This document shows positions 9,096 to 43,311 of a DNA stretch of 43,311 bases, in pieces (the first letter of the stretch is position 1; each line of letters starts with the position of its first letter). The notes under the pieces are model-generated. The model did not search any database. It saw only the letters and a list, made by a program, of their open reading frames with translations, and was not told where the DNA came from. The stretch is from Bacillota bacterium (GTDB taxonomy: Bacteria; Bacillota; Dethiobacteria; DTU022; UBA8154). The stretch spans positions 1-43,311 of the forward strand of contig DUNV01000009.1 in NCBI GenBank assembly GCA_012839215.1, read 5' to 3'. The position numbers and the translations under genes are program-made.

Positions 9096-9145
9096 TATCT
9101 TTCACCACCAAACTTTTTTGATGGAAGGGGGTGTTTCAATTAGAT

Positions 9146-9175
9146 TTGCCCTTCCCATCTTTTTCGTGCTATAAT
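9146..9175 (+). promoter_or_regulatory. Probable SigA promoter of pcm
   Basis: TTGCCC (9146-9151), an 18-bp spacer and a consensus TATAAT (9170-9175) end 21 bp before the pcm ATG. Confidence 0.55.
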
Positions 9176-9196
9176 CGCTAAAACAGGAGGAAAACC

Positions 9197-9841: not shown

Positions 9842-9853
9842 AACGATTTCCGG

Positions 9854-10606: not shown

Positions 10607-10607
10607 C

Positions 10608-11012
10608 CTAGTAGCGGACCTCCATGGCCCGGGAAGGACAGGCAGTGATGCAATGTTCACAAATGATGCATTTTTCGCCATCAAAGTGGACCAGCATGGC
10701 GGGGCGTTCCATGACAAGGGCACCAGCCGGGCAGATCACGCTACAGGCACCACAATGGGTGCAGCGCTCTTCCACCCAAATGATTTCCTGTTCGAGGGGA
10801 AGGGTTTTTACTCCCCGGGAATGCAGAAAATCTAGCCCGGCCCGGAAATCATCCTTATCACCGCTGATCTCTGCTACAATGCGGCCCTCCATCTTAGGAT
10901 TAATATTTGCCTTCAGGATATTGACCATTAGATTGAAATCCTTGATTAGGGAATAGGTTAAAGGATGTTCCACCACAGATTCTGGGAAATACAGCACCAT
11001 TTTTTCTCTCAT
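10608..11012 (-). CDS. NIL domain plus 2[4Fe-4S] ferredoxin of the homocysteine-synthesis set
   Basis: This 134-residue protein combines an N-terminal NIL domain (about residues 3-75, a ligand-binding fold also found at the end of MetN) with a C-terminal ferredoxin holding two cluster motifs, CTHCGACSVICP and CIICEHCITACP. Proteins with this architecture are required, together with COG1900, for sulfide-dependent homocysteine formation in Methanosarcina; the ferredoxin part probably supplies electrons for reductive sulfur transfer. Its start overlaps the stop of the COG1900 gene by four bases (11009-11012), a sign of tight co-expression. Membership of the set is inferred from architecture and order. 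Confidence 0.92.
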   Translation of the reverse strand: MREKMVLYFPESVVEHPLTYSLIKDFNLMVNILKANINPKMEGRIVAEISGDKDDFRAGLDFLHSRGVKTLPLEQEIIWVEERCTHCGACSVICPAGALVMERPAMLVHFDGEKCIICEHCITACPSRAMEVRY

Positions 11013-12211
11013 AGAAGCTCCCCTCCAACGCTTCTTTTATAATCGACCCCTTCATTTGTCAGGGGAAGTGTAAAGACAGGTTCAGTGAGGAAAAACTCGC
11101 CTTTTTGGATCCATTCCTTCAGCGTTCCGGCAATCTGTCTGGCCCCGGCATAGCTCGAAAGGGAGGCCGTAGGGACAGTCTTATCCCCCAGGGTTATTCG
11201 CCCGCTGCGCAGCTGGGCAAAGCTGACCCTCTCCAGTACCTCGCCCAGCCCTTGGGGATAGGACTGGCTATAGTCCACGACAGGAACAAGAATGTCCTCA
11301 TCGGCTACCGCCGTATATTTTAAAATTTCCTCATCCAGGATAGGAATGGGAATTCCCAGTCCCACCATTAGCGAGGCACCATAACCAAGCAGGCTCACCC
11401 CCCGCAACCATTTCCGGGACATCTGCTTTAAATCGCCAATGACGGCCAGCGTCCCCGCCGGGGAAGTGGGAACTCCATTTTCGCCCCGGGGCGCTTCCGG
11501 AGAGTGTTGCGTTCCAAACCAACTGATGTAACCCACACCGCCCCCCAGGAAAATTTTTGTTCCCAGGCCAAGGGTACGGTAACAGGGGTCATTGAGCAGT
11601 GGGGAAAGCTGCCCTGACGTGCTGTAATTGGCGTTTCCCAGGTTAGGCTTGAGAATGCCCATATAGGTATAAAGCGTTCGCTCGGAAAGATTGACTCCCA
11701 CGTTATAATTCTGATAAGCGTTGCGTGTATTATAAAGAACGGCGTAAGGCATATCATCCAGTGTAACAGCCTTTTCATAACTTTTGCGCGGATAACAATC
11801 GGTGCCATAACTGGAGGCGTCCAGCAACACTTCTTTGCCCGCAACGAGATCCTCGATAACATGCCCGCCACCATAGCTAAAGTGGCCGGGATAGGACTTG
11901 TTGGCCGGATCTGTTTCCGGTATTTGTGTTGCCCCAAGATAGGCATCCACAGCAGCAATTCCCGCGTAGGCCTCCACCCCGTTAAGATAAATTTTGCTCA
12001 TGCGCATGCGTGGTTTGGGATGGCCCAGGTTTAAAAATGCGCCGGATGAACACATAGGTCCAAAGGTGCCCGTGGTCACTACATCGACATGGGATGCAGT
12101 CTCTTCTATTCCCCTTTCCTCAACCATAGAAATGACTTCTTCCGCAGTAACAACAACTGCTTTTCCGGCCCGGATTTTTTCGTTGATCTCCGCATATGTT
12201 CTTTTAATCAA
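11009..12211 (-). CDS. COG1900/DUF39 homocysteine biosynthesis protein (aspartate-semialdehyde sulfurtransferase type)
   Basis: Belongs to COG1900 (DUF39, HcyS-like), which makes homocysteine from aspartate semialdehyde and a sulfur source, bypassing homoserine acylation. The frame is open to 12547, but the family's usual start (IKRTYAEINEKIRAGKAVVV) follows a TTG at 12211 that has AAGGCAGGTG upstream. Starting there gives 400 residues and places conserved cysteines at 54 (GTFGPMCSSG) and 139 (YGTDCYP). Two cysteines are reported to matter in the archaeal homologue. An alternative ATG at 12277 lacks a ribosome site. The CBS domains seen in some homologues are absent. The ferredoxin gene overlaps the 3' end. 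Confidence 0.92.
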   Translation of the reverse strand: MIKRTYAEINEKIRAGKAVVVTAEEVISMVEERGIEETASHVDVVTTGTFGPMCSSGAFLNLGHPKPRMRMSKIYLNGVEAYAGIAAVDAYLGATQIPETDPANKSYPGHFSYGGGHVIEDLVAGKEVLLDASSYGTDCYPRKSYEKAVTLDDMPYAVLYNTRNAYQNYNVGVNLSERTLYTYMGILKPNLGNANYSTSGQLSPLLNDPCYRTLGLGTKIFLGGGVGYISWFGTQHSPEAPRGENGVPTSPAGTLAVIGDLKQMSRKWLRGVSLLGYGASLMVGLGIPIPILDEEILKYTAVADEDILVPVVDYSQSYPQGLGEVLERVSFAQLRSGRITLGDKTVPTASLSSYAGARQIAGTLKEWIQKGEFFLTEPVFTLPLTNEGVDYKRSVGGELL

Positions 12212-12358
12212 TTGGGGGCACCTGCCTTTCCGAAATTCCTGTCCCGGGGGACAAGGTTGCTTGTTCACGGAAAACATTTTTGCTATAGTGTTAAGTATAT
12301 CATATTGATAAAAGACTGGGAAGAGGAAAGCGCCGATCGCGGACTGCGGCGCCGCACA

Positions 12359-12454
12359 GGTGCAACACGGGGACGGTTCTCCTGTTGCATTTCCATTCTT
12401 TTTGAAAAAGGATTGATAAAAGATTGCAACAGGAGAACCGTCCCCATGTTGCAC
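12359..12454. repeat. 96-bp hairpin repeat, copy 1 (upstream of queT)
   Basis: Ends form a stem of about 31 bp: GGTGCAACACGGGGACGG at the left and its complement at the right, broken once by A instead of G near 12446. The arms enclose about 34 AT-rich bases that are themselves partly palindromic. It is 94/96 identical to 12967-13062 and in the same orientation. The ACGGGGACGGTTCTCC core resembles REP/MITE sequences seen widely in Clostridia. A separate short stem GCGCCG/CGGCGC (12330-12352) precedes it. Confidence 0.92.
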
Positions 12455-12482
12455 TCCCGTGTTGCCTAGAGAGGAGGCAAAA

Positions 12483-12959
12483 ATGGACAAAAAAAAACAG
12501 CACGGTAAGATCACTACTGTATTACATATAACGCGGGCGGGGATCATTGCAGCCCTTTATATAGCCGTTACCTTCCTGCTATCAGCCATTAGTTTTGGTC
12601 CCGTACAGGTAAGGATTGCTGAAGGACTGACATTGCTGCCCATTTTATTTCCCGAGGCAATCGTCGGGCTTTTTTTGGGATGTTTTCTGGCTAATCTTCT
12701 GGGCCCCTTCGGGGCGGCGGATATTGTTTTTGGCAGCCTGACCACGCTGCTGGCTGCCTACATAACCTATCGTTTCCGTCATAGAAGCGTCATTGCCTAT
12801 CTGAGCCCTATCGTCCTCAATGCTTTTTTAGTTAGCCTCTATCTGTATTTGCTTTTTTCTGTCCCCTACTGGCCGACGGTCCTAACCATTGGGGCCGGCC
12901 AAACCGTAGCAGTACTGGGACTCGGTCTCCCCCTTCTCCGCCTGCTGCGGAAACGATAA
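12483..12959 (+). CDS. queT: Queuosine-precursor transporter QueT family
   Basis: A 158-residue integral membrane protein of the QueT family (COG4708), the substrate-specific S component of an ECF-type transporter for a queuosine precursor. Recognised from IIAALYIAVTFLLSAISFGP, the conserved VQVRIAEGLTLLPILFPE, GLFLGCFLANLLGPFGAADI and the closing GLGLPLLRLLRKR; about five transmembrane helices. ATG 12483 has GAGGAGG upstream, and the frame's earlier ATG lies just after repeat copy 1. No ECF ATPase genes or preQ1 riboswitch were found nearby. The gene is bracketed by two copies of a 96-bp hairpin repeat. Confidence 0.9.
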   Translation: MDKKKQHGKITTVLHITRAGIIAALYIAVTFLLSAISFGPVQVRIAEGLTLLPILFPEAIVGLFLGCFLANLLGPFGAADIVFGSLTTLLAAYITYRFRHRSVIAYLSPIVLNAFLVSLYLYLLFSVPYWPTVLTIGAGQTVAVLGLGLPLLRLLRKR

Positions 12960-21019: not shown

Positions 21020-22228
21020 TCATCCCTTGATGCCGGCTTCCTGCCGCAAAATATCTGCCTTGTCCGTCCTTTCCCAGGTCAGGTGGAGATCGTCCCGGCC
21101 AAAATGCCCATAGGCTGACAGGGCCGTGTAGATAGGGCGACGCAGATCAAGTTGATCGATAATGGCAGCCGGACGCAGGTCAAAATGCCTATTGATGAGG
21201 TTTTCGATTAATTCGACGGGAACCTTTTCTGTACCAAATGTTTCTACGAGAACAGAAACGGGGCGGGCCACACCAATGGCATAAGCCAGTTCCAACTCGC
21301 ATTTATCGGCCAGCCCGGCAGCCACCACATTTTTGGCCACATAGCGCGCCGCATAGCTTGCCGAACGGTCAACCTTGGTGGGATCCTTTCCGGAAAAGGC
21401 TCCCCCGCCATGGCGGGAATATCCCCCATAGGTATCCACGATGATCTTCCGCCCGGTCACACCGGCATCACCCTGGGGGCCACCAATAACAAAACGTCCG
21501 GTGGGGTTAACATAATATTTGGTATCCTTGTCCAGCAGCTCGGCCGGAAGGACCTTTTTGGCCACCTGTTCGATCAGATCGTCGCGCATACGTGCCAGGG
21601 GCACGTCAGCACTATGTTGTGAGGAAAGAATCACGGTAGCGATACGGGCAGGTTTTCCATCCCGATATTCCACAGTAACCTGGGATTTACCATCGGGCCG
21701 CAGGTAAGTAAGAACTTTTTCCCGGCGAATTTTAGTCATGGCCAAAACAAGTTTATGGGCCAGATAGATGGGCAGGGGCATCAGTTGGGGCGTTTCATTA
21801 CAGGCAAAGCCAAAAATAATGCCCTGATCCCCGGCCCCGGTTAGATTGTAAGCCTCCTCCTTCTCCTCACCTGTCTTGACCTCAAGGGCCCGGTTCACCC
21901 CCAGGGCAATATCCGTCGATTGTTCATCGATCGATGTTAGCACAGCGCAGGTATCTGCATCAAAACCATATTTTGCCCGGGTGTAACCGATGTCCCTGAC
22001 GGTCCGGCGGACAACCTTGGGTATGTCCACGTAACAGCTGGTGGAGATCTCACCGGCAACGAGAACAAGTCCTGTCGTCACCAGGGTCTCCACTGCTACC
22101 CTGCCCTGGGGATCCTCCTTCATAATGGCATCAAGAATCGCATCGGAAATGCGATCGCAAATCTTATCGGGATGTCCTTCGGTTACAGATTCCGAAGTAA
22201 ACAAAGCAGTACCGCTATTTTTAATCAC
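21020..22228 (-). CDS. metK: S-adenosylmethionine synthase
   Basis: MetK makes SAM from methionine and ATP. The 402-residue protein has all the hallmarks: [15 protein letters not shown] at residues 12-26, [12 protein letters not shown] near 131, [21 protein letters not shown] near 250-270, the P-loop-like [17 protein letters not shown], and the C-terminal YGHFGR. The start is GTG 22228 with AAAGGAGGAA upstream. A SAM-I riboswitch and terminator fill the leader, so expression should fall when SAM is plentiful. Confidence 0.97.
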
Positions 22229-22300: not shown

Positions 22301-22458
22301 CTCTTATCTCCCAGGATAGCCGGTAAACAATGGCTACCAGCCCTGTGGGATTTGGCACCGGGCGACCGATCCCCTTGGGCCACTGGTTAACGGGGCCGCT
22401 GGATCGGTCCGGTTGCCGGGGTTCATAGAGCCCGTCTCTCCCCCGCTCTTGATAAGAG
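22301..22458 (-). ncRNA. SAM-I (S-box) riboswitch upstream of metK
   Basis: Reading the minus strand, P1 is CTCTTATC (from 22458) paired with GATAAGAG (ending at 22301). Inside lie the conserved AAGAGCGGGGGAGAGACGGG, the ATGAACCCCGGCAACC core, GGTGCCAAATCCCACAGG, and the closing GGGAGATAAGAGG. These are the invariant S-box elements. The aptamer carries an extended, GC-rich P3 arm. Together with the downstream terminator it should switch off metK when SAM binds. Confidence 0.95.
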
Positions 22459-23136: not shown

Positions 23137-24837
23137 CTAGGCCCCCTTATCCTCATGTGCATCGCCATCCTGCAGTTTGTCGCCGAGGACCTCCACCTGG
23201 GGAGGTGCAAAGATAAGGGGAGAACTTTTCATATAATTGCTCTCATTTTCCATCTGCCTGAGTAAAAAGCCCAGTCGCTCTTCCAAGGCTTCGAGGCGCC
23301 CGATATCCCATTCCTTTTCCAAGTAATCGCTTAACCTGTTGGCAAAAAATCTGCTGTTTTCTTTCCATAAATCTCTAATTTCCCTGGATTTGATCCGGGC
23401 GGAAATTTCTTCTTTAATTCCCATTCCGGGAATCCCCAGTGGGAAGAGGGATATTTCCTCCAGATAAGATGGAATATAGACCTCTGCCCCGTACTTTTCC
23501 TCCAACAGGGCCGCCAGATGTTGCAGGGGCTCATCTTCTCCATGGATAAGGATAATCTGGGAAGGGAAATCCCTGATTTTCCCAACCCATTCCAGGATTT
23601 CATTTTGATCGGCATGCGCGGAAAAACCTCCGATGGAGGCAATGCGTGCCCTAACCTTTATTTCTTCCCCAAAGAGCGTCACCCTATCGGCCCCATCGAG
23701 AAGATAACGCCCCATGGACCCCTGCGCCTGGTAACCCACGAAGAGAACAGTCGATCCGGGACGCCAGAGATTATGTTTGAGATGGTGTTTGATCCGACCG
23801 GCATCGCACATCCCGCTGGCGGAAATGATCAGGGCACCCCCCTCAATCTCATTGATCTTCCGTGATTGCTCCACTTTCGGGGTAAAAAACGCCTCCGGAA
23901 AGTGCAGGGGACTTTCCCCGCGGGCCATACAGGCTCTCATCTCCAGGTCAAAACATTCGGCATGTTCGATAAAAACGTCCGTGGTACGAATAGCCATGGG
24001 ACTGTCGATATAGATCGGCAGGGGAGGAATTTCGCCCCTTTCGATGAGTTTGTTAAGTATGTATAAAAGCTCCTGGGTCCTGCCCACGGCGAAAGAAGGA
24101 ACAACGATGTTTCCATCCCGCTCCAGGGTTGAATTAATTATTTCCCTAAGCAGATCGGTCTTTTCCTCTTCACCTTCGTGAAACCTTTGGCCATAGGTGC
24201 CCTCCAAAAGTAAATAATCTGCTTCCTCGATGATGTCCGGATCGCAGATAATACTTTGATTCTTCCTGCCCAAATCGCCGGTAAAAACCAGTTTTTTTCT
24301 GTCCCCTTCATCGGTTACCCATAGTTCAATAATAGCCGAGCCAAGGATATGGCCACTGTTTCTCAGGCGGAATGAAAGTCCAAAGTCCAGGACCATGATC
24401 CTATCATAATCCACCTCAACAAAATATTCCAAAGCATCAACCGCTTCTTGGACAGTATAGAGAGGTTCGGTTTCCGGTCTCCCGGCCCGTCTGGCCTTAC
24501 GATTCTGCCATTCCGCTTCCATTTCCTGAATATGCCCGCTGTCAGGGAGCATAATGCGGCAAAGATCCGCTGTGGCACAGGTCGCATATATGTTCCCCCG
24601 AAAACCGTTCTTAACCAGTTTAGGTATCAGACCGCTGTGATCGATATGGGCGTGGGTAAGAAATAAGGCGGAAATTTCTGCCGGATCAAAAGGAAAATCC
24701 CCATAGTTTCGTTCCCTCAGCTCCCTACCCCCCTGAAACATCCCACAATCTACTAAAATCTTTATGCTTTCCGTTTGCAGCAAAAAACAGGAACCGGTCA
24801 CAGTTTTGGCCCCGCCACAAAACTTTAAGGTCAGCAT
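23137..24837 (-). CDS. Beta-CASP metallo-beta-lactamase-fold RNA hydrolase
   Basis: 566 residues with an MBL fold (LFLTHAHIDHSGLIP near residue 58, the later SGHILGSA and FTGDLGR metal ligands) and a beta-CASP insert (IVVPSFAVGRTQELL, then IIISASGMCDAGRIKHHL with its late motif). The final motif is SIGGFSAHADQ. It is of the YsnF/CPSF73-like COG1236 group, probably an RNA-processing nuclease. About 100 extra C-terminal residues (helical, charged, ending in an acidic tail) go beyond the core. ATG 24837 follows a G-rich site. Which RNA it cuts cannot be told. Confidence 0.88.
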   Translation of the reverse strand: MLTLKFCGGAKTVTGSCFLLQTESIKILVDCGMFQGGRELRERNYGDFPFDPAEISALFLTHAHIDHSGLIPKLVKNGFRGNIYATCATADLCRIMLPDSGHIQEMEAEWQNRKARRAGRPETEPLYTVQEAVDALEYFVEVDYDRIMVLDFGLSFRLRNSGHILGSAIIELWVTDEGDRKKLVFTGDLGRKNQSIICDPDIIEEADYLLLEGTYGQRFHEGEEEKTDLLREIINSTLERDGNIVVPSFAVGRTQELLYILNKLIERGEIPPLPIYIDSPMAIRTTDVFIEHAECFDLEMRACMARGESPLHFPEAFFTPKVEQSRKINEIEGGALIISASGMCDAGRIKHHLKHNLWRPGSTVLFVGYQAQGSMGRYLLDGADRVTLFGEEIKVRARIASIGGFSAHADQNEILEWVGKIRDFPSQIILIHGEDEPLQHLAALLEEKYGAEVYIPSYLEEISLFPLGIPGMGIKEEISARIKSREIRDLWKENSRFFANRLSDYLEKEWDIGRLEALEERLGFLLRQMENESNYMKSSPLIFAPPQVEVLGDKLQDGDAHEDKGA

Positions 24838-32581: not shown

Positions 32582-33745
32582 CTAGCAGTTGGTCTGGCGG
32601 ACAATGTTTGCCATGGCGGCAATAGCCTGATCGATATCCTCGTTTGTGTTAAAGGGACCAGGGCTGAAACGAACCGCCCCAGCATCACCCGTCCCTAAAT
32701 CGGCATGGACAAAAGGGGCGCAATGCAGGCCGGTACGCACAGCAATGCCGTAATCGCCATCTAAAATATCGCCAACATCCCCGGCCTCCAACCCCCCAAT
32801 GGTACAGGTCAGCACGGGAACAGTTTCTTTCCCTGGTGGCGGACTATGGATCACCACTCCCTCAATGGAACTTAGGCCCCGATATAAACGCCTGATCAGG
32901 GCCATTTCTTTTTGCCAAAAACAACTGTAATCCTTCTCCTCGAGGTAATCAAGTCCCGCGGAAAGGCCAAAAATTCCCATAAGATTGAGTGTACCGGCTT
33001 CCAGCCGGTGGGGAAAATCCTGTGTATGGATTAGACTTTTAGATTCGATGCCCGTTCCGCCAAAGCGCGTTGCCCGGATATCGAGCTGGGGCGAAAGGAT
33101 TAGCCCACCGCTGCCGCTCGGCCCCAGGAGAGCCTTATGGCCGGTAAAAGCAATAGCGCTAATGCCCCAGCCAGACATATCAATGGGCAGATGGCCTGCA
33201 CTTTGTGCCACATCCAACAATAAGGGGACTCCCCGGGAGCGACAAAGAGCTGCTATTTCAACAACCGGTTGAACGCTGCCCAGAACATTGGAGGCATGGC
33301 ATACGATCACCAACCTGGTGTTGGGCTCCAGGGCCTTGGCAATTTCCTGTGGATCGATCAGGCCATTGCCATCAAAGGGAATGAGATCATAGTCTAGCCA
33401 TCCCAGTTCTTTTAGGTGATAAAGGGGGCGCAGCACAGAATTATGCTCCAGCCGCGTGGAAACAACATGGTCACCCGGGCGGATCAATCCCAAAATGGCC
33501 ATGTTCAAGGCCTCTGTCGCATTGGATGTAAAAATAACACGCCCCGGATCAGGGGCAGAGAAAAAGCGGGCCAATTTCTGTCTTGCCTTCCAGACCTGCT
33601 CATCCGCTTCGACGGCCAGATCATAGCCCCCCCGCCCCGGGGATACTCCCAGGCGGATATAGGTTTCCAGCATCCTATCCAGCATTCCCCGGGGCTTGGG
33701 GAAAGATGTTGCTGCATTATCGAGGTAAATTATTCTCTCGTCCAT
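32582..33745 (-). CDS. Cysteine desulfurase family protein (TIGR01977 / EF2568 type)
   Basis: A class V PLP enzyme of 387 residues: IYLDNAATSFPKP at the N-terminus, the early TSNATEALNMAI, EHNSVLRPL, the DVAQSAGHLPID strand, the PLP lysine in FTGHKALLGPSGSGG, and the C-terminal cysteine in VRTGLHCAPFVHADLGT followed by VRFSPGPFNTNEDID. This block order is that of TIGR01977, NifS-like proteins that co-occur with orphan SelD and selenium-dependent molybdenum hydroxylases in some genomes. ATG 33745 is chosen for GGAGAAGG. It is third in a run after a molybdenum hydroxylase and a DsrC-like protein, so it may mobilise sulfur or selenium for that enzyme. Confidence 0.88.
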   Translation of the reverse strand: MDERIIYLDNAATSFPKPRGMLDRMLETYIRLGVSPGRGGYDLAVEADEQVWKARQKLARFFSAPDPGRVIFTSNATEALNMAILGLIRPGDHVVSTRLEHNSVLRPLYHLKELGWLDYDLIPFDGNGLIDPQEIAKALEPNTRLVIVCHASNVLGSVQPVVEIAALCRSRGVPLLLDVAQSAGHLPIDMSGWGISAIAFTGHKALLGPSGSGGLILSPQLDIRATRFGGTGIESKSLIHTQDFPHRLEAGTLNLMGIFGLSAGLDYLEEKDYSCFWQKEMALIRRLYRGLSSIEGVVIHSPPPGKETVPVLTCTIGGLEAGDVGDILDGDYGIAVRTGLHCAPFVHADLGTGDAGAVRFSPGPFNTNEDIDQAIAAMANIVRQTNC

Positions 33746-33848
33746 ACCCTTCTCCATTCCGGCGGGGGTTCCCGTACCTCCCCCCCAAAGGGTGCTTTCC
33801 GGGGAAGGCGCATGACAGGGTTGCCTTTAGTATAAAATATTCCCTTTA

Positions 33849-34217
33849 TCAGAGACAATTCTTAGGATTGGGTAATCCGGCAATACGGCGGGCACCGCGC
33901 TTGATACCATCTGGGAAAAGCCTCTCAATTTGCAGCAGGCTGAGGGAGGAGCCTTTCGTTAGCTCCCGGTTGAGCGGTGCCCGGCCGTTATAGTCGTAGA
34001 ACTCCCGCAGGAAACAGATTACCCTCCAGTGATCCTCCCCTAGCGATGCCAGGCCGCTTTCCTGAGCCAGGGCCTCGGCAATTTCCTTGTTCCAGTCTCC
34101 CGATGCCCAGAGGAAGCCCTCCCTATCGAAAAGCACCTCATGCCCGGCTATTGTCCGCATATGTTTACGGGGGGATCCACCTGGCTGATCGGGGTTGGGT
34201 TGATCAGGATTGTACAC
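33849..34217 (-). CDS. DsrC/TusE-like sulfur-carrier protein with a single C-terminal cysteine
   Basis: 122 residues with the DsrC/TusE pattern: IAGHEVLFDREGFL, the helical NKEIAEALAQESGL, DHWRVICFLREFY, LNRELTK and the C-terminal arm GARRIAGLPNPKNCL. The penultimate Cys121, which carries the persulfide in DsrC and TusE, is present. The second arm cysteine of true DsrC is Arg110, as expected for TusE-type carriers. GTG start with GGAGGCGAG upstream. It begins 21 bp after the molybdenum hydroxylase stop and is followed by a cysteine desulfurase gene. No tusBCD or dsrAB is present, so a tRNA-thiolation or sulfite-reduction role is not supported here. Confidence 0.88.
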   Translation of the reverse strand: MYNPDQPNPDQPGGSPRKHMRTIAGHEVLFDREGFLWASGDWNKEIAEALAQESGLASLGEDHWRVICFLREFYDYNGRAPLNRELTKGSSLSLLQIERLFPDGIKRGARRIAGLPNPKNCL

Positions 34218-34238
34218 TTATCTCGCCTCCCCCAATTT

Positions 34239-36890
34239 TTAGTTCTTTTGTGCCAGGGCCTCCTTGACCTTTGCTGCTGTTGCCGGAAGCTCGCAAATCC
34301 AAACGCCAACGGCGTCTTTGATAGCGCTGATGACAGCCGGGGCGGTGGGAACCATCGTCATCTCGCCAACACCGACAGAGCCCTTGGTGCCCCTTGCCCG
34401 CGGCGTTTCCCTGATGATCAGTTCCATATCGAATGATGTTTTGATGCTGGGGAACTTGAATGTAGCCCAGTCTTTGGTCTGCCCGGCAATGTATTCTTCG
34501 CGCAGGGCATAGCCTGCGCCCATGTCCGCGCCGCCTTCTAGTTGGCCTTCGAAGTTCTGTGGATGGATCACCGGGCCGCCATCGACTGCTGTAGTCATTT
34601 TGACGATCCTGACTTCGCCCGTTTCTGTGTTTACTTCCACTTCGGCCATCTGCAAGGCATGTATCTGCGATTCGAAAGCTGCTCCCTGGCCGGTTTGTGG
34701 ATCCATCGGGCCCCTGTCCACAGTGGCCTTGGTACCCACATAGCGGGCGGAGCGCCCGGCCTGTTCCAGTTCAGACCTCGTTGTAGCTCCTGTTTCTTCC
34801 ATCACTTGCTTAAGTTGTTCGAGGGCATTGATCATTGCACCGCCGACCATATAGGTGATACGGCTGGCAGCAGCCGGCCCTGTTTGTGTCGTCAGGCCTG
34901 TATCCCTGGTGGAAAGACGGATTTTATCAATGGGGATGTTCATAAAATCAGAGGCCAACTGGGTAAACATGGAATCATTACCTTCTCCGGGATCGGCTGC
35001 GGCGGCAAAAATGGTCAATCCGCCATCGGCATCGAGTTCCACAGCGGCAACGGCCTGATCCCCCGGGCCTCCTATGCCGAAGGCACCGGCGGCCAATCCC
35101 ACGCCCCGTCGCAAGACGCCGTTTTTAAATTCCCGGGCCTCACGGCAGCTGCGTTCGTAGTGTGGACGTATGGCCTCGCAGAGTTCAGGAAAGGGCCATT
35201 CTGTAACTTCGTTCCCGGTGGATTTCGTCTGCCCGGGCTGCAGTGAATTGAGCAGGCGGAATTCCAGGGGATCTATCTTCATTTCTTCTGCCAACATGTT
35301 GATAGAACATTCGAGGGCAAAGTGTGCCTGGGGCGGGCCGGCGCCGCGGGCGGCAGACCCCCAGGGGTTGTTGGTGTAAACAAGGCGGCATAGTGCATCG
35401 ACGTTGGGTATGTTATAGGAACCGGAGAGCATCAAAAGGGCGCGCTCGATGATAACGTGCCCAATGGAGTTGTATGCACCATTATCCACGATGGTATAGA
35501 AACGGTAACCGGTAATTTTCCCATCCTTGTCCGCACCCATGGTAACATCCATATGGAAGGGGTGACGTTTCGGGCCCATTTCCATAGATTCCTTCAGGCT
35601 GGGAATATAGCGCACAGGTTGCCGGAAATGCACTGCCGCCCCGGCGGTGATGCCTTCGGAGGTGATTTCTGCCTTGATGCCAAATTGCCCGCCGGAATAG
35701 GCTTCCACATAACGCATATCTTCCCAGTCCAGGGCTTCCTGCAGCATGGCCAGGTGCTGGTGAATATCTATACTGCGCCCGACAACAACTAATTGGGCAT
35801 CTTCACCCTCGCCATCGAAATATGCCACACAGGCCTCCGGTTCCAAAGGGGCCTGGTGGTTCACCTGTGTCACAAAACGGCCGTTGATCACCGTGGCCGA
35901 TCCGGCCAGTGCTTTTTGGGCGTCCCCCTTGATCTGGCGCTGGGTATGGACCAGGTTGGGCAGATCATGAATCTGTACCGCACCTTCGGCCAGGGCTTCC
36001 TGGGGCGAGCCCAAAACAGGCAGGGGTTCATACTCGACCTTGACGGCCCGAACTGCCGCAATGGCCTGGTCGCGGGTTCTTGCTGCAACGACCGCCACAG
36101 GATCACCGATATAGCGGACCTTGTCCTCACAGATAACCGGACGATCATCAAAAATCATTTTGAGGCGGTTTGTGCCCTTGATATCCTTTGCTGTCATCAC
36201 CCCAACCACGCCCGGCATTTGCAGCGCTTCCGAGGGGTCAATCCCTAGAATTCGGGCATGGGCATGTGGGCTGCGCACTGCCGCTATTTCCAGTGCCCCG
36301 GGGATGATAATATCCGCTGTAAATTGCGCCGTTCCACAGGCTTTGGCCAGTGCCGAGGGGCGGGGGTGTGAAACACCCAGCTTGGGGCCATGCGGATCGG
36401 GACGCACATCCTCCGGGGTAATTTCGCCGCGCAAAAAGCGGGCTGCCAACCTAACAGCATCAAAAATTTTGACATAGCCTGTGCAGCGGCAGAGGTTGCG
36501 TTGTAACGCTTTTTTAATTTCTTCGGTGCCCGGATCCGGATTTTCATCCAGCAGTGCTTTAGTAGCCATGATCATACCGGGCGTGCAAAAGCCACACTGG
36601 ATTGCGCCGGAAAGGACAAACGCCTCCTGGATGAGATGCGGGTTCTCGGGCGTGCCCAGGCCCTCTACAGTGATAACCTCGGCGCCTTCGAGCTTAGTAA
36701 CTTTAAGCAGACAAGATCTTTCCGCCTTGCCATTGACGATTACTGTGCAGGCCCCACACTGGCCAGCCTTATCACAGGATTGCTTGGTACCGGTCAGATG
36801 TAATTCATCCCGGAGCAAATCGAGCAGGGTAAGTCCCGATCCTGCAACTACCTCCCTGGAAATGCCATTTATCTTCAGTTGCACTTTCAA
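34239..36890 (-). CDS. Fused [2Fe-2S]/molybdopterin aldehyde-oxidoreductase-type molybdenum hydroxylase
   Basis: 883 residues, one chain as in Desulfovibrio gigas MOP: a plant-type [2Fe-2S] domain (Cys39, 45, 48, 60), an alpha-helical second cluster domain (Cys99, 102 and Cys134, 136 in NLCRCTGY), then the two Mo-binding domains (RPSALAKACGTAQFTADI near 178; NHQAPLEPEACVAYF; TNNPWGSAARGAGPPQ) and the catalytic glutamate Glu843 in GSVGVGEMTM. There is no FAD domain, so electrons must pass to a separate acceptor. The first cluster loop is CX5C, where MOP has CX4C. Such enzymes need a sulfido (or selenido) ligand on Mo. Substrate could be an aldehyde or a heterocycle. A DsrC-like protein follows in 21 bp. 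Confidence 0.93.
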   Translation of the reverse strand: MKVQLKINGISREVVAGSGLTLLDLLRDELHLTGTKQSCDKAGQCGACTVIVNGKAERSCLLKVTKLEGAEVITVEGLGTPENPHLIQEAFVLSGAIQCGFCTPGMIMATKALLDENPDPGTEEIKKALQRNLCRCTGYVKIFDAVRLAARFLRGEITPEDVRPDPHGPKLGVSHPRPSALAKACGTAQFTADIIIPGALEIAAVRSPHAHARILGIDPSEALQMPGVVGVMTAKDIKGTNRLKMIFDDRPVICEDKVRYIGDPVAVVAARTRDQAIAAVRAVKVEYEPLPVLGSPQEALAEGAVQIHDLPNLVHTQRQIKGDAQKALAGSATVINGRFVTQVNHQAPLEPEACVAYFDGEGEDAQLVVVGRSIDIHQHLAMLQEALDWEDMRYVEAYSGGQFGIKAEITSEGITAGAAVHFRQPVRYIPSLKESMEMGPKRHPFHMDVTMGADKDGKITGYRFYTIVDNGAYNSIGHVIIERALLMLSGSYNIPNVDALCRLVYTNNPWGSAARGAGPPQAHFALECSINMLAEEMKIDPLEFRLLNSLQPGQTKSTGNEVTEWPFPELCEAIRPHYERSCREAREFKNGVLRRGVGLAAGAFGIGGPGDQAVAAVELDADGGLTIFAAAADPGEGNDSMFTQLASDFMNIPIDKIRLSTRDTGLTTQTGPAAASRITYMVGGAMINALEQLKQVMEETGATTRSELEQAGRSARYVGTKATVDRGPMDPQTGQGAAFESQIHALQMAEVEVNTETGEVRIVKMTTAVDGGPVIHPQNFEGQLEGGADMGAGYALREEYIAGQTKDWATFKFPSIKTSFDMELIIRETPRARGTKGSVGVGEMTMVPTAPAVISAIKDAVGVWICELPATAAKVKEALAQKN

Positions 36891-36975: not shown

Positions 36976-37006
36976 TGCGGGCAACACTACTAAAGTGTTG
37001 CCCGCA
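36976..37006. other. Perfect 13-bp hairpin between the nitrilase and molybdenum hydroxylase genes
   Basis: TGCGGGCAACACT (36976-36988) pairs perfectly with AGTGTTGCCCGCA (36994-37006) across a 5-base loop. Neither strand has a real U-run after it. It could be an attenuator, an mRNA-processing or stability element, or an inefficient terminator splitting the run into two transcripts. The rest of the 205-bp gap holds no gene. Confidence 0.7.
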
Positions 37007-37095: not shown

Positions 37096-38181
37096 CTATT
37101 CCTCAGCCTTATCGGCCAGCTTGGATTCCAGCCAGGCAATACGCTTATTCAGGGCATCGATTTCTGTGTCATATTGGGGCATAAACCCTCCCCCCTCCAG
37201 CCGTTCCATGGGAACTGTGGGGGAATATGGCTGCTCACGACGTACGAGTGCCAGAACATCCCGGCGATCATAAATGCCTAGTATATTTGCATCGGCCTTG
37301 GCCATGGGGATAAGGCTCAGATCAATATCATGATAGACAATGCCTTTGGCCTCATAAAGTGGCTCGGTGACAATGTTACCGAAGGGATCGACCACACAGC
37401 TGCCGCCGACACTCATATGGAAGTTATTGTTGCCATAGGTATCTTCGGGAACATCATCCGGGGAGACATAGGGGGCAGCAAGCACAGCCCAGCATCTTGC
37501 CGAAACGCAAAGCGATTGGGTCATAGCCAGCATAACCGGCTTGACAATGCTCATTCCCGGCCAGAGGGCAGTATGAACCTGTACACCTTCAACCGCCAGA
37601 TGTTGTTTGAGGAGAGGCTGGAAATGTTCCCCACAGATTAACCCGCCTATTCTGCCCAGGGGTGTATCAAACAGTGGGATATTATCACAGGGTTCCACCG
37701 TGGTTACGTCACCACGGGTATGGAAAAACAGCTCGTTAATAGTGATACAAAGTTTTCTATGTGTTCCCAGTACCTTGCCGTCAGGCCCCACATAAAGAAT
37801 GGCATTGTACATGCGGCCATCGTAAACAGGGTCCCTTTCATTCATGCCCATGACGACATAACATCCGGCTCTTTGGGCCGCGGCACAGATGGCCTCGCTC
37901 TCCGGGCCTGGTATAATCGGGGAATTAACCAGGTATTGTTTCCAAAGGAAGAAAAACTCTTTGGCATTGTCCATGCTGGATATATCCATGGAATAGTGGG
38001 GGTAACCAGGGAGAAAAGTTTCAGGGAAAACGACGAGTTTGGCACCGTTTCTACCTGCTTCCTCGATCAGGCTTACTGCTCTGGCAAGGGTAGCATTGAC
38101 ATCGAAGAATTCAGGCCTGTTAACATAAACAGGGCTCTCCTGGACCGCGGCAACCTTGTACGCAGGATATTCCTTGAACAT
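37096..38181 (-). CDS. Nitrilase-family carbon-nitrogen hydrolase
   Basis: 361 residues. The nitrilase triad is present: Glu54 in LVVFPETFLPGYP, Lys143 in GTHRKLCI and Cys183 in GRIGGLICGEHFQP, plus the structural second glutamate Glu150. YPHYSMDISS after the first motif and the late SPDDVPEDTYGNNNF match true nitrilases and cyanide hydratases more than amidases. The residue after the cysteine is Gly, where many nitrilases have Trp (CWEN). The C-terminus has a heptad-like helix ending in KLADKAEE. ATG 38181 follows AAGGAGG. It would convert a nitrile to its acid and ammonia; substrate unknown. It lies between a membrane-protein gene and the molybdenum hydroxylase gene. Confidence 0.88.
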   Translation of the reverse strand: MFKEYPAYKVAAVQESPVYVNRPEFFDVNATLARAVSLIEEAGRNGAKLVVFPETFLPGYPHYSMDISSMDNAKEFFFLWKQYLVNSPIIPGPESEAICAAAQRAGCYVVMGMNERDPVYDGRMYNAILYVGPDGKVLGTHRKLCITINELFFHTRGDVTTVEPCDNIPLFDTPLGRIGGLICGEHFQPLLKQHLAVEGVQVHTALWPGMSIVKPVMLAMTQSLCVSARCWAVLAAPYVSPDDVPEDTYGNNNFHMSVGGSCVVDPFGNIVTEPLYEAKGIVYHDIDLSLIPMAKADANILGIYDRRDVLALVRREQPYSPTVPMERLEGGGFMPQYDTEIDALNKRIAWLESKLADKAEE

Positions 38182-38329
38182 TCGACAACCTCCTTGTCTT
38201 GTTATGAAATGATCACGATAAGTTTGTTTCCAGTGGGAATCCACCGCCGAATTTTTGTTCCCGGATTTTGATCGATAGGCATCAACTTCTTCCCACGCTG
38301 CATTTACCAGCTTAGACGGCAGGCCCTAT

Positions 38330-39448
38330 CTATGGGGATGGTTCGCCGTCCGGCGGGGCCAGCGGGGGCAGGGGCCAAAACTGGAACAGATCACCATATG
38401 CCGCCCACATGGGGAACAACAAGGCCAGCATCATTGTATTGGTGGCAAATAGATCATCGGGATAAACCATTGCATCGCCAAACTTCCAGAGGCAAAATGC
38501 CCGAATACCATAATTACCAACAATTGCTATCACTATGGCCAAAACAATATTAAGAAAACCCCCTGCAGCTGACTTTATTGTATTTCCCGGCCACAGCTGG
38601 AAAAGCGTCAGGAGCAGTAGAACCCCAAAGATAAAGGATACCGCATAGGACATAAATGTTAGTGGCTCAATTTTCAGCAGATGAATGCCTATGGCTAGCA
38701 GGATATAACCCAGGATCAGGCATGAGGCCGACACAACAACTCCAAAAAGTGGTTGCTTCATCTTAAGTTTGGTAAAAGGCCACATCCCCAGTGCTGCAAA
38801 CATCCACAGGAAATCGACCGAACAAACTGTATAGGCGGCAGCATGTTCCCAGGGAATGGGCCCACTGGGTGCGGGCAAACCGAAAAGGGGGCCACCAGCC
38901 TGGTAAAAAGGTACAGCTGCAATAGGTGAAGGAGAAACCCCCGCAGGATATGATAATAGATTAAAATTGAATAGTTGGGTCAAACACAGCGCGATCAGGT
39001 AACCGAAAATAATGAAAAGAAAACCTGCCGCCGGGAGGGAAAGCTTATTAAATGGCCAAAAGCCAAAGGCGAGAAAGAGAAAAAACATAGTAATAACTGC
39101 CACAATAGTATAAATGGTCAGATAGGGATGAAGAACACCCCCTCCAATAAAATTGATGAGGAAATAGCTTATCAGTAGTCCCCCTGAGAGTGCAAAGACT
39201 AGAAGCACCACTCCTTTAAAGGGCTGGGGAACGTGTTCAATTGATATGAATCCGCCTCCCCACAGTGCACCGATAACAATAAATAGGCCAATACAGGACA
39301 TAACGTAGTAACCTAAAAAGCCCGTAAACACCTCGATACTAAAACTGCTGGCAATAATAAAGGAGAATAGAAAAGTTACGATCAAAGTAAATAATCCACG
39401 TCCAGGTTGCCTAGCCGCCCATGGTGCTTTTAAAAATTGATCACCCAC
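38330..39448 (-). CDS. Unrecognised multi-pass membrane protein with internal WP-motif repeats
   Basis: I do not recognise a family. The 372 residues form about ten hydrophobic helices. A module recurs: two helices joined by a short loop with a Trp-Pro motif, seen as FGFWPFNKLS (near 130), LGMWPFTKLK (near 224), FQLWPGNTIK (near 290) and FQFWPLPPL (near 360), each but the last followed by a Gly-containing helix (FIIFGYLIA, LILGYILLA, LAIVIAIVG). An earlier PQPFKG loop near 75 may be a further copy. The last two form a W-P-rich C-terminus. GTG start at 39448 has a modest AGG site. It lies between nitrilase and symporter genes, so a transport or sensing role for the same substrate is plausible. 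Confidence 0.75.
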   Translation of the reverse strand: MGDQFLKAPWAARQPGRGLFTLIVTFLFSFIIASSFSIEVFTGFLGYYVMSCIGLFIVIGALWGGGFISIEHVPQPFKGVVLLVFALSGGLLISYFLINFIGGGVLHPYLTIYTIVAVITMFFLFLAFGFWPFNKLSLPAAGFLFIIFGYLIALCLTQLFNFNLLSYPAGVSPSPIAAVPFYQAGGPLFGLPAPSGPIPWEHAAAYTVCSVDFLWMFAALGMWPFTKLKMKQPLFGVVVSASCLILGYILLAIGIHLLKIEPLTFMSYAVSFIFGVLLLLTLFQLWPGNTIKSAAGGFLNIVLAIVIAIVGNYGIRAFCLWKFGDAMVYPDDLFATNTMMLALLFPMWAAYGDLFQFWPLPPLAPPDGEPSP

Positions 39449-39476
39449 TACCTATAACCGCCTTTCTTTTAAATTT

Positions 39477-39488
39477 CCACGATCGTGG
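39477..39488. promoter_or_regulatory. Perfect 12-bp palindrome upstream of the repeat membrane protein
   Basis: CCACGATCGTGG lies 29 bp upstream of the GTG start in the 301-bp gap to the symporter gene. It could be an operator. No further copy was noticed in the window. Confidence 0.3.
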
Positions 39489-39671
39489 AGGCTAACCCGT
39501 TTCCCAAAAATACCCCATCCATCGCAATCCTACCCCAGACATCAGATTAGCTATCCATTTACCACCCCTCTCAACATGAAGATGATCCAACTGCATAGAC
39601 CTTATTTCCGCATTTCCTTGCTGCTATGCCGTTGAAACTTTTTTCACAGTGGCATCAATGAAAGGTAGGCT

Positions 39672-39711
39672 CCGGTGGCAGCAAGCCTGTGTTTTATGCT
39701 GCTACCACCGG
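39672..39711 (-). terminator. Hairpin downstream of the symporter gene
   Basis: CCGGTGG-CAGC and GCTGCTACCACCGG form a stem of 11-12 bp with one bulge and outer AGGCT/AGCCT pairs (39667-39720). It begins about 30 bp after the symporter stop. There is no U-run, so termination may be partial. The rest of the gap 39449-39749 shows no convincing gene. Confidence 0.45.
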
Positions 39712-39749
39712 AAAAAGCCTATTCAACAATAATCTATGCGTCTGCCTGG

Positions 39750-41216
39750 CTACATATTAATGGTAGCAGTCTTTGTTTCCCTAACCAGAAAACCCTTTTC
39801 ACCGGGGATTAGCAGATTAAGCCCGACACCGAGGACTAAAGTAATGACCAGGCTCAGGTAGGTTGCACCAAACCATTCGGGTGCCCCCAGCGCCGCGGGG
39901 AGGCCAGTGTATTCCCAGACAAAGCATGCTACCAGGGAAACAATCATTGTATAGAAGGCAACGTTAGAATTCCTTTTCCAGTAAAGCCCAATAACCATCA
40001 TAACGACAAGGGGAATTCCCAAAGCAAAGATAAAGAGTCCGGCCAACAACATATGCGGGAGATAAAATGCCGGTATTATTGCCGCCGCGCCAACAACAAC
40101 GATCAACAATCTGCTGAGAAAGGGCACTGCTTTATGTTTGTTGGGGGATTTGGAAAGGACAAGATAAAGATCATTAACAATAATTTGGCTGATGCCCATC
40201 GTACAACGTGCCCAGGTAGATAGGACAGCAATTAAAAAGGCAGCCAACACGAGGATCACGACAAAAGTAGGCAAATATGTCAGCAACATCGTCATACCAG
40301 CCATTTTGGGGCCCTCGGCAGCAAATTGGGGTATTGTCCAGGCTGCAAGCCCAAAGGCTATTGTAAAAAAAGCAAAGGGGGTATTGACCAACAAAGCTAT
40401 AAAACTGGACTTCTTTGCTGAAGTAGTATCCTTGGTGGCAAGAATATATTGCACAACCCCCTGATCGGTGAGCACTGTCAAAGTCTGCCCGATTGTTATT
40501 GCCAGGGCAAAACCCAGAATAAGGTTAAGATCTTTGGGCCAAAAGCTGAGGAAATCTGAAAGCCCCTGGCTATTATAAAAGGCATCGACACCTGCCCAAC
40601 CAGCGGGAAGCTTTAACGTTACGATAATAAAAGCAGCTACAACGGCTGCATACATTAAAATAGTGTTCACAATATTTAAGTAAGTCACCTGCCACATACC
40701 CGAAATCAACAAATAAATTAGTGCACAAATCATAAAGAAAATAAGGGCGGTATGGACATCGATCCCCGTGACAATGGCCGTAATTATTGCCCCGCCCTGG
40801 GTCTCCAAAGATAAGAGGGCAAAGCAGAAGACCATCCCGATAATGGAAGTCATAACCCTCGTTTTCAGATCGTATATATTGGCGAAGATTTCCTGAATAG
40901 TGTTAAATCCCATTTTACGATAAACCGCTGCCAGAAAACATCCCAATATAATGAAGTAGAAACCCGTGGGAACCGTATACCAAAATGTAAGAATTCCAAA
41001 TGTGGCGGCCGACTCCATATAGCCGGCACAGTGAAGCGCCCCAATAGCAGAAACACCCATAGTAACTCCTGCTAGCCAGGGGCTGAGCTTTTTATCCCCA
41101 TAAAGATAGCTGTCACCGCTCTTGCCAAGTCCCTTTCTTAGCACAAAAATACCGATAATAATCGATAAACCTATTATGTAGACCAGTACTCCAGTTAAAA
41201 TGTCCCATCTTAACAT
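39750..41216 (-). CDS. Sodium:solute symporter (SSS) family protein
   Basis: 488 residues with about 13 transmembrane helices. SSS features are SYLYGDKKLSPWLAGVTMGVSAIGA near residues 36-60, the NTIQEIFANIYDLKTR loop near 106, TDQGVVQYILATKDTTSAKK near 250, and the STWARCTMGISQIIVNDLY helix near 345. Family members import proline, pantothenate, acetate, nucleobases or other solutes with sodium. This sequence does not tell me which. ATG 41216 is chosen for GGAGG seven bases upstream. A 31-residue hydrophobic protein is encoded just upstream, as often seen for symporter small accessory proteins. Confidence 0.9.
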   Translation of the reverse strand: MLRWDILTGVLVYIIGLSIIIGIFVLRKGLGKSGDSYLYGDKKLSPWLAGVTMGVSAIGALHCAGYMESAATFGILTFWYTVPTGFYFIILGCFLAAVYRKMGFNTIQEIFANIYDLKTRVMTSIIGMVFCFALLSLETQGGAIITAIVTGIDVHTALIFFMICALIYLLISGMWQVTYLNIVNTILMYAAVVAAFIIVTLKLPAGWAGVDAFYNSQGLSDFLSFWPKDLNLILGFALAITIGQTLTVLTDQGVVQYILATKDTTSAKKSSFIALLVNTPFAFFTIAFGLAAWTIPQFAAEGPKMAGMTMLLTYLPTFVVILVLAAFLIAVLSTWARCTMGISQIIVNDLYLVLSKSPNKHKAVPFLSRLLIVVVGAAAIIPAFYLPHMLLAGLFIFALGIPLVVMMVIGLYWKRNSNVAFYTMIVSLVACFVWEYTGLPAALGAPEWFGATYLSLVITLVLGVGLNLLIPGEKGFLVRETKTATINM

Positions 41217-41296
41217 TTGCAAACCTCCAATATTTAAAGAATTTTAACAACTTTTACCGCAAGCCTCTGATAAAGTAGGAACATTTCTTACTGGAA

Positions 41297-41718: not shown

Positions 41719-43311
41719 CACTATCGTTGCATAAACTGAAAATCAATTTGTCAAGTGGTGAAATACTAAGCAATTAAACGAAATAACCAGGAAAATAGTT
41801 TAAACAGCCATATAAACCTTGCATGATAAAGAAAACTCCTTTATAATAGAGATACATGGTAGTCCTTGCCATAATCCCTAAAATAAAGGAGATCGATATG
41901 CAAGGCAAGGATACTATAAAATCCACATTTGTTCAACTGTTTGAACCAATATTTTCAAAGAATTTTCACAAACTGCTTCAAAAACTGGAGGTTGATAAAT
42001 ACGTCAAAAAGCTAACGGCCTGTAAATTCGTTGTTTTAATGATCTTTGCCCAACTTGAACAGCTAACATGTTTAAGGGAAATCAGCAGCAGCTTTCATAA
42101 CAATGAATTCAGCAATGCCATTAAACTTGAATCCATCAGCTATTCGCAGATTTCCCGTAAACTACGCAGCTTGACCCTGAAAACAGTTCAGTACTTATTC
42201 CAGGATCTAGTCCGGCAAACAGGCAAGCAGACAGGATTTAAGCCGATAAGGGAAAGACTTGGCCGTCTTTATTTGATCGATTCCTCAACAATCAGTCTTT
42301 GCTTAACCAGATACCACTGGGCCAGTTTTAGAAAGACCAAAGCCGGCATTAAATTACACCTGAGGTTAAGATTGTTTGATCAAGGGGTCCTCCCCGATGC
42401 TGCAACCATCACCCCCGCCAAAAAGGCGGACAAAACCCAAATGGATGACCTGATTGTTGAAGAAGCAGGCGCCTTTAATGTTTTTGACCGGGGTTACATT
42501 GATTACCAGAAATTTGATGATTACTGTGAAAAAGGGATACTGTTTGCCAGCCGCCTAAAGAAAAATGCCCTGGTAGAGGTAATCAAGGAACTAGCCCCCG
42601 GTAGGATGATTAAACGGGACAGCATTGTTATACTGGGCAAAGACGGACTTACAAGGATGCACCACCCCCTTAGAATCATCGAAACAACGGATACTGAAGG
42701 TAACCCGGTCGTTATCCTTAGCAACAACTTTACACTAACTGCTAAGGAGATAGGCGACATCTACCGTTACCGTTGGCAGATCGAACTTTTTTTCAAATGG
42801 ATTAAACAGCATCTGCATGTTAAACACTTCTATGGATTAAGCCAACAAGCGGTAGAGATGCAACTCTACGTTGCCCTCATTACCTACTGTTTGCTAAAGC
42901 TGATCCAGTTAAAAACGGGTTACAAAGGGCCGTTACTACAAATCCAAAGACTGCTCAACACCTGTCTGTATGAACCTTTTTCTTGCTTCGTCCGTAAGCT
43001 TTACCGCAGGGCTAAACGCACTTCCCAAGGCCGGCGGAAAGTAGACCATGAAAGGATATATCAAGAAACCTTAAGGCAGGTGATGGCAGGCGAAGCAGAT
43101 CATTTAGATGATCTAACCTATGATCCAGTAATACTCTAAAACAAACACTGATGTTAAAATGTGGAAAGGGCTACCTTTAAGAGATTGCTCCTTTGACCAC
43201 ATGGGGGAAAGTAAACTGTAATAATATGCCATATATGGGGTATAAAGGGTAACCCATTATTTGGAATGCCATGGTTTGACAGGGGCCTAAAATTTTAATG
43301 CAACGCTACTG
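41719..43311 (+). mobile_element. IS4-family insertion sequence reaching the right edge
   Basis: Left end CACTATCGTTGCATAAA (from 41719) and the reverse complement of the right end, CAGTAGCGTTGCATTAA (ending at 43311), match at 14 of 17 positions. They enclose a single transposase gene. The span of 1593 bp is normal for IS4-family elements. The right flank lies outside the window, so the target duplication cannot be checked, and the end may be a few bases further. It is inserted about 125 bp upstream of the first small ORF of the symporter run. Confidence 0.8.
41898..43139 (+). CDS. IS4-family transposase
   Basis: 413 residues with an N-terminal DUF4372-like region (about 10-100) and a DDE domain: Asp128 in LYLIDSSTI, Asp197 in VFDRGYIDY, and Glu296 in the Y(2)R(3)E(6)K signature (Tyr289, Arg292, Glu296, Lys303). 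All catalytic residues are present and the frame is intact, so the element may be active. ATG 41898 follows AAAGGAGA; the frame extends upstream to 41856 without a better site. A poor SigA-type promoter may lie in the left end. Confidence 0.95.
   Translation: MQGKDTIKSTFVQLFEPIFSKNFHKLLQKLEVDKYVKKLTACKFVVLMIFAQLEQLTCLREISSSFHNNEFSNAIKLESISYSQISRKLRSLTLKTVQYLFQDLVRQTGKQTGFKPIRERLGRLYLIDSSTISLCLTRYHWASFRKTKAGIKLHLRLRLFDQGVLPDAATITPAKKADKTQMDDLIVEEAGAFNVFDRGYIDYQKFDDYCEKGILFASRLKKNALVEVIKELAPGRMIKRDSIVILGKDGLTRMHHPLRIIETTDTEGNPVVILSNNFTLTAKEIGDIYRYRWQIELFFKWIKQHLHVKHFYGLSQQAVEMQLYVALITYCLLKLIQLKTGYKGPLLQIQRLLNTCLYEPFSCFVRKLYRRAKRTSQGRRKVDHERIYQETLRQVMAGEADHLDDLTYDPVIL

Follow-up and report, generated by a model that had tools for sequence, protein, structure and literature searches.

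A conserved gene trio of molybdenum hydroxylase, DsrC-type protein and cysteine desulfurase suggests a carrier-mediated sulfur relay to a molybdenum enzyme

Why does the gene of a small DsrC-type protein stand between those of a molybdenum hydroxylase and a cysteine desulfurase, and what might the three products do together? The question is raised by contig DUNV01000009.1 (assembly GCA_012839215.1) of a Bacillota bacterium of the lineage DTU022/UBA8154, whose 43,311 nt are referred to as a whole as the window, the genome itself being coded G000. A preliminary description of this DNA had placed three minus-strand genes at 32582–36890, in the order hydroxylase, DsrC-like protein and desulfurase, which is confirmed in the sequence, and had proposed a relay dedicated to delivering sulfur or selenium to the cofactor of the enzyme. 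Our comparative analysis of genomes indicates that this trio, composed of a MOP-type hydroxylase, a DsrC-like protein and a TIGR01977 desulfurase, is a conserved, probably operonic unit which is probably tied to molybdenum cofactor (Moco) maturation, and suggests that a carrier whose known settings are sulfur respiration and tRNA modification was co-opted to supply a molybdenum enzyme with sulfur.

The hydroxylase gene (34239–36890, minus strand) encodes 883 residues from a TTG start located behind a TTGGAGGG-type ribosome site. Its product contains the Pfam domains Fer2, Fer2_2, Ald_Xan_dh_C and MoCoBD_1/2, that is, two [2Fe-2S] domains and the molybdopterin domains without a flavin adenine dinucleotide domain, being an enzyme of the MOP type within the xanthine-oxidase family. 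The best solved relative is the aldehyde oxidoreductase of Desulfovibrio gigas (1sij/1vlb; E=2e-167, residues 5–879 aligned), and the [2Fe-2S] cysteines are kept, as is the catalytic glutamate E843, aligned to E869 of 1sij/1vlb. The score against NF045668 ('molybdopterin-dependent aldehyde oxidoreductase') is 758 bits, under the cut-off of 1100, so that functional identity with the D. gigas enzyme (hereafter D. gigas MOP) is not to be assumed. As for the desulfurase gene (32582–33757, minus strand), translation likely begins at the second ATG, 33745, which in the alignment is the start position of most relatives; the gap of 103 bp previously given between the DsrC-like and desulfurase genes holds if this start is used, and the gap of 21 bp between the hydroxylase and DsrC-like genes is exact. 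The desulfurase scores 401 bits against TIGR01977 (cut-off 377) and 314 bits against the SclA selenocysteine lyase model, under its cut-off of 525, and both the pyridoxal phosphate lysine K208 and the catalytic C346 are invariant in an alignment of 11 sequences. By its sequence, this protein is a member of the cysteine desulfurase / selenocysteine-lyase family.

Between the two, at 33849–34217 of the minus strand, lies a gene with a GTG start behind GGGGAGGCG, whose 122-aa product has the C-terminus ...GARRIAGLPNPKNCL. It belongs to the DsrC/TusE family, as it matches PF04358 (E=5e-27, 94.9 bits, cut-off 24.9) and TIGR03342 (78.6 bits, cut-off 53.5), and its AlphaFold model, with a predicted local distance difference test score of 85, retrieves DsrC chains in Foldseek at E=5e-10, with a TM-score by target of 0.91 (3or2_C). 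The penultimate residue, Cys121 (codon 33855–33857, minus strand), occupies the CysA position according to sequence and alignment; it is the sole conserved cysteine and is invariant in 12/12 trio members, one of which (locus L020) has three residues beyond it. About ten residues upstream, the CysB position is Arg in all 12, and the canonical DsrC which the cultured Desulfocucumis palustris encodes separately from its trio copy has Cys at this position and ends in ...GSCKLAGLPKPTGCV. The DsrC proteins of the trios group together in one clade with support 99/98, separate from the sulfite-reductase DsrC and from most TusE sequences, and share the signature LFPGGIKxGARRIAGLPNPKxCL. In a profile search of the phylum (399 genomes) just three genomes reach the trio level of at least 195 bits and the remaining matches stay at or below 119 bits, part of this separation arising because the profile was built from trio members; those of the lower matches that were inspected have the canonical ending of GACK.AGLPKPTGCV type. 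In the window's genome, in six further Bacillota trio genomes and in one metagenome-assembled genome (MAG) labelled 'Deltaproteobacteria', the trio protein is the only DsrC/TusE member above cut-off.

The two roles known for this family were rejected for the trio protein, since the corresponding partners are missing. DsrA above cut-off is absent from 11 of the 12 trio genomes, including that of the window, and D. palustris, which alone is positive, has the separate canonical DsrC; together with the Arg at CysB, this speaks against a role in sulfite reduction. Concerning tRNA thiolation, the TusD/DsrE model finds no match above cut-off in any of the 12 trio genomes (TusB and TusC were not searched separately), and the window's protein reaches 54 bits against the TusE model NF008562, whose cut-off is 191. 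A further candidate, the DsrC genes of Ignavibacteria that lie near a 409-aa gene suspected to be a SufS neighbour, was also discarded, as the neighbour does not resemble the trio desulfurase.

If the three genes work together, their adjacency should extend beyond this contig, and indeed it does. At order level DsrC was detected in 5 of 71 genomes, with the order hydroxylase, DsrC and desulfurase in 5/5, and a profile search of the class yielded five further genomes, all of which have both hydroxylase and DsrC; the desulfurase is there too in each case where the contig extends far enough. A scan of GTDB 220 (one genome per species) added trios in Firmicutes UBA3932, in D. palustris and in the 'Deltaproteobacteria' MAG, which is labelled Myxococcota in the tree, so that the holders span Bacillota MAGs of several families, a cultured species and this last MAG. 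All DsrC relatives of at least 50% identity lie directly downstream of an orthologous hydroxylase, and no homologue of 46% identity or less adjoins such a hydroxylase in the GTDB 220 scan. The trio members number 12, all placed directly behind the hydroxylase orthologue, and the desulfurase comes next except on one contig that ends. These orthologues have 64–81% identity to the window's hydroxylase; in plasmid records we found distant hydroxylases only, below 60%. In the relatives the gaps measure 0–18 bp between hydroxylase and DsrC and 7–23 bp between DsrC and desulfurase, the 103 bp of the window being an outlier, and from these short distances the trio is very probably co-transcribed there.

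Among the 98 genomes of the class, 10 encode this DsrC and 12 a close orthologue of the hydroxylase, all 10 of the former being among the latter; the two orthologues without DsrC are fragments that end at a contig edge on the side where DsrC is expected, so that the gene downstream is not visible. The co-occurrence gives p=5e-12 in a Fisher test, a value that is merely descriptive because the genomes are related and no correction was made for relatedness. The pairwise identity matrices of the three proteins correlate with r=0.84–0.91, as expected when genes are inherited together. In the hydroxylase tree the trio enzymes are not strictly one clade, which is due to two cut-off fragments placed inside and to the Deltaproteobacteria row standing at an unresolved fork. 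Clearly, the identical order in every related locus shows that the adjacency is not by chance: the neighbourhood, whose loss in relatives the preliminary description would have counted against its proposal, is kept across distant bacteria. We regard a general functional link between the trio DsrC and the hydroxylase as very probable.

The gene content around the trio points, beyond mere adjacency, to cofactor maturation. In genome G044 (locus L011) the trio is followed by a molybdopterin-binding protein with a molyb_syn domain, XdhC and YqeB. In family f6 (loci L104, L106, L107 and L108) it is found among genes for a DVU_1551 MocA-like nucleoside triphosphate transferase, a phosphatase and an XdhC-type factor, and further genes of these clusters, each cluster gene not being in every locus, encode a DVU_1556 methyltransferase, a DVU_1555 C-GCAxxG-C-C protein, a DVU_1553 ligase, an NTPase-methyltransferase fusion and a ModE-like regulator. 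An XdhC homologue occurs in 8 of the 10 trio genomes of the class, sometimes in the trio operon. The window's own genome encodes XdhC (412 bits to NF045664), a metallo-beta-lactamase-fold protein and YqeB in a row on contig C97 (L012:13377-16197, plus strand), away from the trio. Two genomes of the same genus have an XdhC/YqeB block of this type plus a molybdopterin-binding domain protein, and no trio. It had been foreseen that an XdhC homologue encoded elsewhere might suffice, making the relay superfluous. Such a homologue does lie elsewhere, next to YqeB, but XdhC is a cofactor chaperone, neither desulfurase nor carrier, and its presence within the trio operon of some relatives makes it look like a partner of the relay rather than a replacement for it.

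A second line of evidence comes from genome G016, whose trio lies on contig C173. A hydroxylase paralogue of 58% identity is encoded on contig C82, clustered with the same DVU-type genes, and is followed (L149:7887-9795, minus strand) by a SufS-type desulfurase, with 27% identity to that of the trio, and by a 132-aa NifU/SufU-like protein with cysteines. The presence of two unrelated pairs of desulfurase and small carrier in one slot, a comparison drawn at a single paralogous locus, suggests that the slot behind the hydroxylase may serve sulfur delivery.

The conservation of the unit, its context of Moco genes and the other pair beside the paralogue all strengthen the earlier proposal of a desulfurase-DsrC relay dedicated to the hydroxylase, and a relay for sulfuration of its molybdenum cofactor is in our judgement the best explanation of these genomic patterns, held with somewhat more confidence than doubt. 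The TIGR01977 enzyme would take sulfur from cysteine to form a persulfide on Cys346, from which Cys121 at the C-terminus of the DsrC-type protein would accept it. DsrC would then hand the sulfur to the molybdopterin cofactor, probably at a stage when this is bound to an XdhC-type chaperone, whose gene lies elsewhere or, in some relatives, in the trio operon, and the mature, sulfur-ligated cofactor would subsequently enter the hydroxylase. In this scheme we infer the persulfide on Cys121, the transfer partner, and the molybdenum ligand, as opposed to another sulfur site, as the target. A more demanding version, in which the DsrC-fold protein is an obligatory carrier of persulfide or selenopersulfide that inserts the terminal chalcogen on the molybdenum cofactor of a distinct lineage of MOP-type hydroxylases, appears to us evenly balanced between true and false.

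Some considerations weigh against such a relay. In D. gigas MOP an oxo ligand suffices for activity, no sulfido ligand being required, and activation is a matter of dithiolene chemistry (PMC3877041), so that either the trio lineage is unlike this enzyme or the sulfur of the relay is destined for another site. Also, the NifS4 of Rhodobacter capsulatus sulfurates the XdhC-bound cofactor directly, with no carrier (PMC2997495), from which it follows that a carrier is not obligatory. The widespread occurrence of XdhC without the trio likewise implies that DsrC is dispensable for other hydroxylases. Two of the 10 trio genomes of the class (G070 and G073) yielded no XdhC, possibly as a result of genome incompleteness, and the relay as a whole is a prediction from genomes.

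Among the alternatives, the one closest to the sulfur relay retains the enzyme and changes the element: the TIGR01977 protein would be a selenocysteine lyase, and DsrC would pass selenium on for a molybdenum-selenium ligand. Indeed, a selenocysteine lyase function connected with selenium-dependent hydroxylases has been proposed for TIGR01977 proteins (PMC2276186), the score of the trio desulfurase against SclA, although below cut-off, is in the same sense, and SelD and YqeB, which are among the genes that the preliminary description meant to look for, are both present in the window's genome, YqeB also belonging to the trio locus of G044. However, YqeB (TIGR03309) is above cut-off in only 4 of the 12 trio genomes, that of the window included, and in none of the five f6 genomes nor in D. 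palustris, which makes sulfur the better general assumption. SelD was rejected as a discriminator and is uninformative on selenium, since it occurs in nearly all genomes of the class, irrespective of the trio, usually with an in-frame TGA; the gene of the window's genome (G000:C6:3743-4663, minus strand) has one such codon, and its product likely contains selenocysteine. The selenium branch of the earlier proposal is thus weakened, and we consider it unlikely as a general explanation, selenium being possible in some lineages, the window's own among them. We assign the same low probability to a relay in which carrier and desulfurase supply another sulfur, either that of the [2Fe-2S] clusters or that of the dithiolene, or repair an oxidised dithiolene. 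The D. gigas case, where activation is dithiolene chemistry and not resulfuration of molybdenum (PMC3877041), favours this possibility. The pair beside the G016 paralogue includes a NifU/SufU-like protein, of a family linked to Fe-S assembly, which does so as well. Nevertheless, Fe-S and dithiolene sulfur normally come from housekeeping systems, which makes a private relay unexpected, and the clusters of several relatives are rich in Moco-specific factors.

In a different arrangement, DsrC would be a functional partner of the enzyme, acting as substrate carrier, electron acceptor or subunit, and the desulfurase would merely load it. That DsrC binds DsrAB in solved complexes (matched chains 2v4j and 2xsj) and that hydroxylase and DsrC genes are separated by merely 0–21 bp are both compatible with a partnership, but the second redox cysteine required for the intramolecular disulfide or trisulfide cycle of DsrC is Arg in every member, and the closely similar G016 cluster runs its paralogue with the SufS/NifU-like pair and without DsrC; we find this improbable, more so than either of the relays just discussed. 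Least credible of all, to the point of being nearly dismissed, is that the protein is an ordinary TusE of tRNA 2-thiolation whose gene position is incidental. Its single-cysteine architecture is TusE-like and the tree places the trio DsrC beside two gammaproteobacterial rows, although the branches are long and this grouping may be an artefact, but the lack of TusD, the low TusE score and the invariant linkage to the hydroxylase stand against it.

With regard to the substrate, in locus L015 the trio and a regulator are followed (8054-12024, plus strand) by an iron-alcohol-dehydrogenase-like gene and by a glycyl radical enzyme with an apparent activase, the radical enzyme scoring above the cut-off of the (2S)-3-sulfopropanediol dehydratase model, which suggests an aldehyde formed in sulfonate breakdown as a possible substrate of the hydroxylase in this locus. 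In the window, the genes upstream of the trio (37096–41222, minus strand) encode a nitrilase (CN_hydrolase, 382 aa), a 372-aa membrane protein that matches neither Pfam nor NCBIfam, and a sodium:solute symporter; in relatives these genes do not accompany the trio, and they may be related to a local substrate. Between the nitrilase gene and the trio, a perfect 11-bp inverted repeat with a 7-nt loop can be read from the sequence at 36977–37005 (GCGGGCAACAC-TTTAGTA-GTGTTGCCCGC), which is atypical as a terminator since it has no T run, and is a possible operator or boundary. In a scan for consensus promoters and terminators, matches were no commoner than in shuffled sequence. Elsewhere in the window, an HcyBio gene (11009–12547, minus strand; homocysteine biosynthesis, sulfur incorporation) encodes a further sulfur-transfer protein, a SAM riboswitch (RF00162, 69.8 bits; 22301–22458, minus strand) precedes metK (21020–22228), a Beta-CASP nuclease of 566 aa (23137–24837, minus strand) scores 395 bits against the type VII CRISPR Cas14 model (cut-off 800) and 294 bits to aCPSF1, and an IS4-family transposase (41856–43139, plus strand) lies close to the contig end.

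Terminal-sulfur delivery to bacterial xanthine-oxidase-family enzymes has been characterised mainly for one pair, NifS4 and XdhC. If the relay is real, the DsrC fold would have a further role, in the maturation of a metal cofactor, besides those in sulfur respiration and tRNA thiolation, and to our knowledge no carrier step linking a desulfurase to an enzyme of this family has been described before. A separate hydroxylase lineage could then be recognised in genomes by this marker, and the three genes would form a compact test system, available also in the cultured D. palustris; the relay bears, in addition, on the question of why maturation genes accompany MOP-type enzymes when D. gigas MOP apparently has no need of a sulfido ligand. 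In a largely open-access body of literature we found no report joining DsrC with 'molybdenum hydroxylase' or TusE with 'aldehyde oxidoreductase'; the relay would belong to a known kind of system, desulfurase-driven cofactor sulfuration, with a carrier that is unreported as far as this literature shows.

Compared with the R. capsulatus NifS4-XdhC system, the trio has in common a cysteine desulfurase assigned to terminal cofactor sulfuration of a xanthine-oxidase-family enzyme, and an XdhC homologue in most genomes; it differs in having a DsrC-family gene between the genes of enzyme and desulfurase, where the transfer by NifS4 is direct (PMC2997495), and in a desulfurase that belongs to TIGR01977. 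With the E. coli TusE of the TusABCDE-MnmA relay it shares the DsrC fold, one C-terminal cysteine and the proposed function of terminal persulfide carrier, whereas trio genomes have no TusD, the gene partners are a molybdenum hydroxylase and a desulfurase, and the clade is its own. The sulfite-reductase DsrC proteins (2v4j, 2xsj and 3or2 chain C) are of the same family and fold, yet in the trio Arg replaces the second cysteine, and DsrA is above cut-off nowhere save in D. palustris. The set YqeB/YqeC/YgfJ/SelD/TIGR01977 of selenium-dependent molybdenum hydroxylases (Haft and Self 2008) agrees in the desulfurase family, the hydroxylase family, XdhC and, in 4 of the 12 genomes, YqeB; unlike for the trio, no DsrC is described for it (PMC2276186), its small sulfurtransferase-like protein being TIGR03527 (SirA-like), and most trio genomes are without YqeB. 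A further likeness is to the DVU_1551-1556 and NF045664/NF045668 clusters, which unite a MOP aldehyde oxidoreductase with an XdhC-type maturation factor: the f6 trio sits inside one of them, and in contrast to the paralogous DVU-type cluster of G016, with its SufS and NifU-like proteins, the DsrC protein marks a variant of this cluster.

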